This document shows positions 3,612 to 42,114 of a stretch of DNA of 43,458 nt, in pieces. The position numbers and the translations under genes were made by a program. Origin of the DNA: Acidaminococcaceae bacterium. Its GTDB lineage: Bacteria > Bacillota > Negativicutes > Acidaminococcales > Acidaminococcaceae. Location: contig JAQVYX010000006.1 in the NCBI GenBank assembly GCA_029004715.1, positions 1 through 43,458 on the forward strand, written 5' to 3'. The notes beneath the pieces were generated by a model, which was not told the DNA's origin, searched no databases, and worked only from the letters and a program-made list of their open reading frames with translations. Position 1 is the first letter of the stretch. Each line of letters opens with the position of its first letter.

Positions 3612-3663
3612 ATAAGCAAATAAGTGGCCTCCCGAAAAATCGGGAGGCCACTTATTTGCTTAT
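3612..3663. terminator. Bidirectional intrinsic terminator
   Basis: 24-bp perfect inverted repeat ATAAGCAAATAAGTGGCCTCCCGA with AAAA loop, between convergent genes ending 3572 (+) and 3666 (-). Confidence 0.85.
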
Positions 3664-7597: not shown

Positions 7598-8590
7598 CTA
7601 AACATTAAAACCGCTTTTATGAGTAAATGTAGCTTTTTTAGCTTTATCTTTATTTTGCAACAATTCATATATACGTTCCAAATCATCATGGGAATAGTAT
7701 TCTATTAAAATCTTTCCACCATCAGCCTTACTCTGCAGAACTTTAACTCTTGTGCCTAAATATTCCGTCAAATCGTTTTGAAACGTTTTAGCATAAATAT
7801 CTTGTTCTTTTTTAGTTGTCTTTTTCTCTTTGCCAACTATTTTTTTCTTTTTAGCTCCGTCTAAACCAAGGCTAGTAATTTTTTCTCTAACAACTTTTAC
7901 AGTATTGCCCTCTTTGTATTCGTTAACCACTTCTTCAACAGTACGTGCTGACCAATCATTAGCTACAATTTGCGTTGCCATATCTTCCATGCGCTGTTGA
8001 TCACCAACACCAAGCAAAGGGCGTACCTGCCCCATAGTTAAGTCACCTTTAGCAACAAAGTTGCGGATACTTTCCGGTAAGTTGAGCAGTCTTAAAGAAT
8101 TACTTACCGCCGTTTTGCTCATGCCCATTTTTTTAGCTACTTCCGCTTGCGTTATACCCAATTTATCCATCATACTGCGCAGACCTTCAGCTTCCTCGAG
8201 GGGATTTAAATCACTGCGTTGCATGTTCTCTATTAAAGCCACTTCCATCATAGTTGCATCATCATATTTACGTACAACTACAGGAACAACGTCTAACCCA
8301 ACTTCTTTGGCAGCTCGCCAACGACGCTCACCGGCAACTATTTCGTATTTTTCTCCTACTTTCCTTACAATTAGTGGTTGAATAACCCCACTTTCTTTAA
8401 TCGAACTCACTAATTCTCTTAATTTCCCTGGTTCAAAAGTTTTGCGAGGTTGATAGGGATTAGGAACCAGGTCTTTTATCGCCAGTTCTCCCGTTGTATC
8501 ACCCTTCACAAATGCCTGAACTATATCTTTTTTACCACCAAACACGCTATCGAGTCCCGTTTTACCCAAGCCTCTTGTTTTAGTTGCCAC
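7598..8590 (-). CDS. parB: Chromosome partitioning protein ParB/Spo0J
   Basis: 330 aa; IKDLVPNPYQPRKTF, YEIVAGERRWRAAKE, IENMQRSDLNPLEEAEGLRSMMD, HTH TQAEVAKKMGMSKTAVSNSLRLLNLP. Confidence 0.96.
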   Translation of the reverse strand: MATKTRGLGKTGLDSVFGGKKDIVQAFVKGDTTGELAIKDLVPNPYQPRKTFEPGKLRELVSSIKESGVIQPLIVRKVGEKYEIVAGERRWRAAKEVGLDVVPVVVRKYDDATMMEVALIENMQRSDLNPLEEAEGLRSMMDKLGITQAEVAKKMGMSKTAVSNSLRLLNLPESIRNFVAKGDLTMGQVRPLLGVGDQQRMEDMATQIVANDWSARTVEEVVNEYKEGNTVKVVREKITSLGLDGAKKKKIVGKEKKTTKKEQDIYAKTFQNDLTEYLGTRVKVLQSKADGGKILIEYYSHDDLERIYELLQNKDKAKKATFTHKSGFNV

Positions 8591-9344
8591 GTTTTAGTAC
8601 CTCCTTGGCTAATGCTCTATACATTTCAGCGCCTTTAGACTTAGAATCGTATACGTTAATTGGTTGCCCAAAGCTAGGAGCCTCACCTAAACGCACACTA
8701 CGCGGAATTACCGTCTTATATAACAAGGTAGGAAAGTGTTTTTTAACTTCGTTTACTACATCATTAGTCAAATTTGTACGCGTATCAGACATAGTCATAA
8801 GAATACCTTCTAATTCAAGCTCAGGATTTAGCATTTCTTGGATGCGTTCAGCCGTATTCAGCAACTGAGTAACGCCCTCCAAAGCATAAAACTCACACTG
8901 GATAGGAATTAATATGGAATCTGCTGCCGTTAAAGCATTTATAGTTAATAAACTTAAAGATGGAGGGCAATCAATTATTACGTAGTCATAATTTTTTCTG
9001 ACTTCTTCTAACGCACGCTTTAAGCAACATTCCCTATTAAGTTTGTTGACCAAATCTATCTCTGCACCAGCTAAGTTAATAGTTGCAGGCGCTATCCATA
9101 GATTAGTAAAAGCCGTTTCTACTACGACTTTTTCCAGTGGTACATCCTTGATTAGCACATCATAAACGCATTGCTTAAGATTATCTTTCACAATGCCCAA
9201 CCCACTTGTAGCATTTCCTTGTGGATCATTGTCCAGCAAAAGTACTTTTTTCTTCTTTTCTGCTAAACAAGCTGCCAAATTTATGCTAGTGGTAGTCTTT
9301 CCTACGCCACCTTTTTGGTTGGTTACTGCTATTACTTTGCCCAA
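8580..9344 (-). CDS. parA: Chromosome partitioning ATPase ParA/Soj
   Basis: GKVIAVTNQKGGVGKTTTSINLAACLA (deviant Walker A), VIIDCPPSLSLLTINAL. Probable TTG start at 9344 (aaggagtgacaagcTTGGGC); the track begins at 9392. 11-nt overlap with parB. Confidence 0.96.
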   Translation of the reverse strand: MGKVIAVTNQKGGVGKTTTSINLAACLAEKKKKVLLLDNDPQGNATSGLGIVKDNLKQCVYDVLIKDVPLEKVVVETAFTNLWIAPATINLAGAEIDLVNKLNRECCLKRALEEVRKNYDYVIIDCPPSLSLLTINALTAADSILIPIQCEFYALEGVTQLLNTAERIQEMLNPELELEGILMTMSDTRTNLTNDVVNEVKKHFPTLLYKTVIPRSVRLGEAPSFGQPINVYDSKSKGAEMYRALAKEVLKRGN

Positions 9345-9442
9345 GCTTGTCACTCCTTCATTGTCCCTTATTATAACCCCACTAACAATCATGCTATTAT
9401 TCTAACACAAATAAAGAAAAAAACAATTATTGTATTTTAAAA

Positions 9443-9498
9443 GGTAAAAGTCAAAAGGTCAAGTTTCCACGTGGAAACTTGACCTTTTGACTTTTACC
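9443..9498. repeat. 56-bp perfect palindrome centred on CACGTG (candidate parS-like partition site)
   Basis: GGTAAAAGTCAAAAGGTCAAGTTTCCAC|GTGGAAACTTGACCTTTTGACTTTTACC; both 28-nt arms are exact reverse complements; lies between parA and rsmG. Confidence 0.85.
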
Positions 9499-9627: not shown

Positions 9628-10341
9628 TTATAAAGGAGTTTTAGATACTATCCCCGCTTTCCTTGGATATTTTGCCGGTGTATTTTTTTGCTTTTGTACA
9701 ACTAAAATTGCTCTTCCATCGTCTAACCCCGGAAGTTTGACTTGTTCGCAACTAATAAGCTTTCCACCTAAAATGCACATGGCCTTTTCTCCCTGAGCGA
9801 GCTCTTCTTTATATTTAGAACCCTTCATAGCATAAAAATACCCATCTTTTTTTACCAAAGGCAGACAATATTCTGCCAATATGGGAAAAGAAGCAACCGC
9901 CCTAGCTATAGCAATATCGTAATGCTCTCTATGCTGCGCTTTATGGCCTGCATCTTCAGCCCTTATATGTTCACAGATAATCTCCTTTAAATCCAGTTCT
10001 GTAATAACAGCCTCTAAAAATTTAAGTCTCTTAGCTAAAGAATCCATAAGTACCATTTTTAAGCTGGGGCAATAAATTTTTAATGGAATACTGGGAAAAC
10101 CTGCTCCTGTTCCTACATCTACCAAGGTTTTATTGGGGAATCGCTTCGCATCATAAACAAGAAGAGAATCAATCATATGCTTAACAGCGACATCTTCCGG
10201 TTCAGTAATTGTCGTTAAATTCATTATTTTATTAGTTTCTACTAGCATTTCATAATATTTATTAAATTTTTCCACTTGTTCTTGTGTAAAGACAAACCCA
10301 GCTTCTTGCCCTTTGCTAGTCAGTGCTTCAATAAAATTCAT
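9628..10341 (-). CDS. rsmG: 16S rRNA (guanine527-N7)-methyltransferase RsmG (GidB)
   Basis: 237 aa; MNLTTITEPEDVAVKHMIDSLL, LVDVGTGAGFPSIPLKI, IAIARAVASFPILAEYCLPLVKKDGYFYAMKG. Confidence 0.96.
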   Translation of the reverse strand: MNFIEALTSKGQEAGFVFTQEQVEKFNKYYEMLVETNKIMNLTTITEPEDVAVKHMIDSLLVYDAKRFPNKTLVDVGTGAGFPSIPLKIYCPSLKMVLMDSLAKRLKFLEAVITELDLKEIICEHIRAEDAGHKAQHREHYDIAIARAVASFPILAEYCLPLVKKDGYFYAMKGSKYKEELAQGEKAMCILGGKLISCEQVKLPGLDDGRAILVVQKQKNTPAKYPRKAGIVSKTPL

Positions 10342-34474: not shown

Positions 34475-34522
34475 GCTAAATGTCCTTTTTGTGGAGCTTT
34501 TTTCACAAAAAGGACATTTAGC
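34475..34522 (+). terminator. Terminator hairpin downstream of ilvB
   Basis: 19-bp perfect arms GCTAAATGTCCTTTTTGTG / CACAAAAAGGACATTTAGC. Confidence 0.7.
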
Positions 34523-42030: not shown

Positions 42031-42036
42031 AACAGA

Positions 42037-42083
42037 AAAGAACATCAACAATGTTAAAGTTAATAACATTGTTGATGTTCTTT
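42037..42083. terminator. Bidirectional terminator between dnaB and the ROK gene
   Basis: 20-bp perfect arms AAAGAACATCAACAATGTTA / TAACATTGTTGATGTTCTTT between convergent genes. Confidence 0.8.
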
Positions 42084-42114
42084 ATTGTCACTAACAAACA
42101 TCGAACAAAATTTG

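Follow-up and report, generated by a model that had tools for sequence, protein, structure and literature searches.

A putative parS with a drifted core, set in a 56-bp palindrome beside parAB, and a ParB carrying Lys173 in an Acidaminococcaceae genome

The window, the whole 43,458-nt stretch of DNA analyzed here, covers the origin region of an Acidaminococcaceae genome (G000); a second genome of the same genus (G001) serves as its closest comparison. The genes rsmG, parA and parB are all on the minus strand (Table 1), and a long palindrome occupies the parA side of the interval between rsmG and parA. It is thus downstream of rsmG, upstream of parAB and about 7 kb from dnaA, in the position upstream of parA that an earlier sequence-only reading of this DNA had given it. 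The genes dnaA, dnaN, recF, gyrB and gyrA, named from their translations, are present in the window at about 7 kb and more from the palindrome. Within the parA reading frame, the start codon is more likely the TTG at 9344-9342, behind a GGAG at 9356-9353.

Table 1. Positions of the palindrome, its parts and the neighboring genes in the window
Feature	Position	Strand	Basis or remark
Extended parS element (putative), perfect 56-bp palindrome	9443..9498	.	28+28 nt arms, 100%, 0 spacer; single copy
Drifted parS core (putative) GTTTCCACGTGGAAAC	9463..9478	.	Only in G000 and G001 among 383 class genomes
Left arm AAAGTCAAAAGGTCA, common to canonical parS sites of relatives	9447..9461	+	Motif class found mostly beside parS cores
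Terminator-like hairpin toward parA, tail TTTACCTTTT	9447..9494	-	Terminator scan; RNA fold -45.1 kcal/mol, z -9.5
Probable parA promoter, -35 TTGTTT (9426-9421), extended -10 TG-T-TAGAAT (hexamer 9404-9399)	9399..9426	-	Read from the sequence
rsmG (gidB), upstream neighbor; transcript could end at the hairpin	9628..10341	-	NCBIfam TIGR00138 over cut-off
parA (soj)	8580..9392	-	ORF; Pfam AAA_31 1e-72
parB (spo0J), only ParB-family chromosome partition gene found in the genome	7598..8590	-	Pfam ParB_N, HTH_ParB, ParB_C; single genome match
Codon of ParB Lys159, equivalent to Caulobacter ParB Arg173 (reads parS guanine 1)	8114..8116	-	Gapless alignment to 6T1F

The arms (9443-9470 and 9471-9498) are complementary at every position and abut directly, which bears out the earlier description of two exact reverse-complement arms without a spacer, and the sequence at their junction, AGTTTCCACGTGGAAACT, is also as given there. 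Given its base composition, the window should by chance hold about 5e-12 palindromes of this kind; among those without a spacer, the second longest has arms of 17. The 2.0-Mb genome contains one copy. A dispersed repeat is ruled out by this, and the genome scan that the sequence-only reading had called for reveals no scattered repeat family.

Few DNA sites in bacteria are as conserved as chromosomal parS. The consensus given in the literature is TGTTNCACGTGAAACA; Pseudomonas has TGTTCCACGTGGAACA and Streptococcus AGTTTCACGTGAAACT (PMC7022226). When the 16-bp core of the palindrome, GTTTCCACGTGGAAAC, is set against the symmetric consensus TGTTNCACGTGNAACA, only the outermost TG/CA is altered, to GT/AC on each side; relative to TGTTTCACGTGAAACA there are 6 mismatches, with the dyad and the CACGTG centre kept. 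The element lies near the origin and next to parAB, but because the outer TG/CA is replaced and the match to TGTTNCACGTGAAACA fails there, it is classed by orthology as a drifted variant and not as a canonical parS. The exact core occurs in 2 of the 383 class genomes, one copy each, both times upstream of parA and both times in this genus. Alignment of the two identifies a 48-bp identical stretch in a diverged spacer, although part of the conservation in G001 is unreadable because its contig starts at the palindrome with mirrored sequence. The first 130 bp of this contig (L010:1-130) form a perfect mirror with the palindrome at its centre, probably an assembly fold-back there.

Canonical parS (TGTTTCACGTGAAACA) is absent from the 43-kb origin window, even allowing 3 mismatches, in an assembly that covers the origin region but is a draft of 198 contigs, so that a canonical site could sit in a gap. 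Several canonical sites near the origin, the outcome that would have told against the sequence-only reading, were therefore not encountered. The sole match within one mismatch in the G000 genome is on contig C22, within an ORF without a clear family; it was rejected as a real parS, since it is inside an ORF and a reversed control pattern scores the same count. G001 has zero matches within one mismatch. At least one such match is present in 52 of the 59 family genomes, a count that takes in the C22 match. Another genome, G008 (genus g8, 96% complete), has zero ParB match and zero parS within one mismatch, a possible case of Par system loss.

Relatives in the family have a canonical parS (TGTTTCACGTGAAACA) upstream of parA, between rsmG or noc and parA, and it often forms the centre of a long perfect palindrome with arms of 18-25. 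Examples of an arm with its half of the core, read up to the centre, are AAAAGGTCAATGTTTCAC in G009, AAAAAAGTCAATGTTTCAC in G014 and AAATAGGTTAATGTTTCAC in G006; G012, G061 and G063 have two or more such extended parS sites. In the neighboring genus, G004 has the core TGTTCCACGTGGAACA within a 50-bp palindrome (half, AAAGGTCGAAAGGTCAATGTTCCAC), and G001, in the same genus as the window, carries the window core at this place. The arms can be matched as well. In 336 kb of par-locus sequence there are 11 occurrences of the arm motif GTCAAAAnGTCA (palindromic copies counted on both strands), and 10 of these are within 45 bp of a parS core. In G009, from a sister genus, the arm AAAGTCAAAAGGTCAA stands beside a canonical core, in the same place as in the window. 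As both the intergenic position and the arm sequence correspond, the window palindrome is considered the orthologue of the canonical parS elements of its relatives, and the comparison of the rsmG-parA region that the earlier reading had proposed thus places canonical parS, in long palindromes, at the orthologous positions.

Long arms are not peculiar to the window element, since many canonical parS sites of the class have them. Of 70 distinct canonical parS contexts from the family, 30 have arms of at least 12 bp, and so do 12 of 33 from the rest of the class, some of these contexts being close relatives; about 0.5% would be expected by chance (four extra pairs, with the pairing probability to the fourth power). 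Across the class (L074-L126, L138-L207), the arms of canonical parS palindromes reach 25. The sequence-only reading had remarked that the arms are far longer than parS needs. A second parS is present inside the parB coding sequence at several loci (L087, L088, L092, L094-L096, L121). In the examples read, this internal site spells V-S-R-E-T just before the TMGQ contact motif, and the few examined are not extended. The window ParB has VAKGD at that place and no internal parS.

Among the 35 informative extended parS palindromes, the 5' arm beyond the core is A-rich in 29 and T-rich in 6 (p ~1e-4 if the sites were independent, which related sites are not), and this polarity is that of a bidirectional terminator. 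On the minus strand of the window, TTTACCTTTTAAAA comes after the stem, and the hairpin is called by a terminator scan; a stable GC-containing hairpin with a U-rich tail is thus present on that strand. The earlier statement that there is no U-tract is partly true, and fails for the minus strand. Matches to RNA families are limited to sub-threshold hairpin hits, mostly to microRNA models and far below gathering scores. The probable parA promoter (TTGTTT with an extended -10, TGTTAGAAT) lies about 17 bp downstream and is kept in the G001 alignment; an automatic promoter scan favored different -35/-10 pairs, within the right arm. Because extended parS arms usually look like bidirectional terminators, the window arms probably also insulate the parA promoter, and the arms are probably an insulator or terminator built around parS. 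Repair-driven self-perfection, via template switching, is a possible alternative origin of these palindromes.

It is very improbable that CACGTG stands at the centre by accident and that the element serves between rsmG and parA only as an intrinsic terminator, acting in both directions, or as an attenuator. Like such terminators, it is a perfect and very stable hairpin with A-rich and T-rich flanks at a gene end, the terminator scan match is directed toward parA, and the A-rich 5' arms of most extended parS palindromes are in keeping with the same role. There are other long hairpins at gene ends in the window (3612-3663, 34475-34522 and 42032-42088, with 19-25 bp stems, two of them perfect), and these are probably ordinary terminators. 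However, the palindrome has a ParB-site-like centre and no loop, terminator polarity is not seen in all extended parS arms, and relatives have parS or near-parS sequences at the centre of their own long palindromes upstream of parA. A terminator loop would not require both species of the genus to have the identical core, and on this explanation the genome would be left without a recognisable parS despite its intact parAB. An operator for some other parAB regulator, or an extruded-cruciform site, in place of a partition site is if anything more improbable still. The palindrome adjoins the probable parA promoter, TTGAC boxes recur in its arms, and the arm motif is found preferentially beside parS, but both position and arms are as in the canonical parS of relatives, and no candidate regulator was identified.

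The window ParB has the domains of a chromosomal ParB, with ParB_N, HTH_ParB and the C-terminal dimerisation domain all over the Pfam cut-off. Its recognition helix aligns without gaps to that of Caulobacter ParB (6T1F), GKSRSHVANT against GMSKTAVSNS, so that Caulobacter Arg173 corresponds to a lysine here (Caulobacter numbering is used below). Position 173 is Arg in 52 of the 54 family ParBs aligned and Lys in two, those of G000 and G001. A degenerate DNA pattern for the Lys-containing helix, which matches the window at 8085-8125, identifies no further ParB in 383 class and 399 phylum genomes. The candidate Lys173 proteins outside the genus are not ParB: L211 is a different, GntR-like HTH by translation, and the rest misfit the helix. 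At the other contact positions the protein mostly agrees with its relatives (Q162, G170, S172, N178, G201 and R204), and positions 179 and 184 are Ser and Asn. Of the Arg173 and Gly201 expected of a chromosomal ParB, the window ParB thus has Gly201, with Lys at 173. Two divergent family ParBs have Ser in the G201 column, which qualifies the published statement on G201 conservation (Jalal et al.). In G004, the ParB retains Arg173 and is the only one of the 54 aligned with Val for the conserved contact Asn178; beside its TGTTCCACGTGGAACA core (L080), it forms a second deviating ParB-parS pair.

In structural and mutational work on ParB, R173 hydrogen-bonds guanine 1 of parS and is called absolutely conserved in extant ParB; in a four-residue scan, Arg173 was common to all the parS-specific variants, and those R173Q variants that lacked a permissive Lys at 179/184 (QTAG, QTAR) bound 0 of 16 tested sites (PMC7383237). 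Since the altered core and Lys173 are limited to the same two genomes, and R173 contacts the guanine that has changed, compensatory co-evolution is suggested, with ParB and parS as a naturally re-tuned pair. The coincidence is one event in two species, and thus has no statistical weight of its own.

An orthologous position, common arms, a single copy, a core and a lysine restricted to one genus and the lack of canonical parS near the origin are best accounted for if the palindrome is the chromosomal parS, probably the only one, whose core has drifted and whose ParB has followed with Lys173. This is likely, though not assured, and it lends support to the earlier idea that this may be the main partition site and that the specificity of ParB is altered. 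Binding by ParB, the altered specificity, the terminator activity and autoregulation are what we infer from these observations. Loading at GTTTCCACGTGGAAAC, ParB would behave as it does at other parS sites: it would be an ordinary CTP clamp, and the partition complex that serves ParA and SMC would form there. The core would have drifted from TGTTNCACGTGNAACA within this genus by the change of the outermost TG/CA to GT/AC, and ParB would have answered by replacing the guanine contact Arg173 with Lys, which may recognise the guanine at its new position, one step further out, or may do no more than accept that the guanine is gone. The paired arms would form a hairpin at which rsmG transcription most likely also stops, setting rsmG apart from the parA promoter, and ParB bound at the palindrome could autoregulate parAB.

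It may also be that the site is an orthologous parS for which specificity has not truly switched, with relaxed or half-site reading centred on TTCCACGTGGAA and a Lys173 that has stopped reading the outer base. Lys for Arg is a conservative change, the remaining bases of the half-site (TTNCAC) are kept, as are most ParB contact residues, and S. pneumoniae tolerates a change of the outermost base, AGTTTCACGTGAAACT (PMC7022226). This explanation is nevertheless unlikely: the altered core is identical in both species and its guanine has been moved, not lost, which suggests selection for a particular sequence, and the known primary-chromosome sites read from a review table keep the guanine (PMC7022226). 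A stronger form of the co-evolution reading is an orthogonal pair, arisen in a Noc-less clade, in which the Lys173 ParB would specifically read the shifted guanine of GTTTCCACGTGGAAAC and no longer canonical parS; the chances of this are about even. Counting against altered specificity are the published parS-specific variants, all with Arg173, and the Ser179 and Asn184 of the window ParB where a permissive Lys might stand.

Like canonical chromosomal parS (TGTTNCACGTGAAACA) with ParAB/Spo0J-Soj, the window site is beside parAB near the origin and has a CACGTG centre, dyad symmetry and the TTNCAC half-site, along with an intact ParA and a three-domain ParB; it differs in the outer GT/AC for TG/CA, ParB Lys173 for Arg, the single site and the 56-bp palindrome. 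Sites of the Pseudomonas/Myxococcus type (TGTTCCACGTGGAACA or ...ACG) share a C at half-site position five, and the G004 core is exactly TGTTCCACGTGGAACA, but the outer TG is retained there. ParB and Noc are a model for the evolution of DNA-binding specificity, and Noc with its NBS is the best-known natural re-tuning of a ParB-type protein. There too, residue 173 is changed together with half-site base 1. However, NBS half-sites are changed at positions 1 and 6, and Noc is a paralogue, encoded beside parAB, with Gln173/Lys179/Lys184/Arg201 and many genomic sites; in the window it is ParB itself that has changed (K173, S179, N184, with G201 kept), the single site is parAB-linked, its CACGTG centre lacks the base-6 change, and Noc is absent.

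In a tree built from ParA and ParB, G000/G001, G004 and genus g12 form one well-supported clade. Noc-level matches are present in the sisters of this clade, G014 and G009, and none is found in G000, G001 or G004. It may be, as a hypothesis, that Noc loss preceded the drift and lifted the need to keep parS distinct from NBS. G004 is attractive as an intermediate, with T to C first and the outer swap later, but the tree has the canonical g12 closer to G000 than G004, and G004 is a long branch, so that the core changes may have come in either order.

Arg173 was invariant among the parS binders of laboratory scans. If the present reading is true, a living lineage with both residue and base changed would represent a path that the screens missed, and could supply an orthogonal ParB-parS pair. 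The coincidence of drift and Noc loss in this clade leads to a testable idea, that the avoidance of cross-talk with NBS is part of what keeps parS constant. In addition, the survey indicates that parS of this class is often embedded in long perfect, terminator-like palindromes; no literature on extended parS palindromes or divergent parS in the class was found. In genus g16 (G068, G032, G026 and G016; for example L098, L110 and L111), there are 26-43 parS matches per genome within one mismatch, on many contigs, and several of them have a common flank, AAAGTCAAAAAGTCAGATTGTTTCACGTGAAACATTT, a pattern that would fit the spread of parS on a dispersed repeat.
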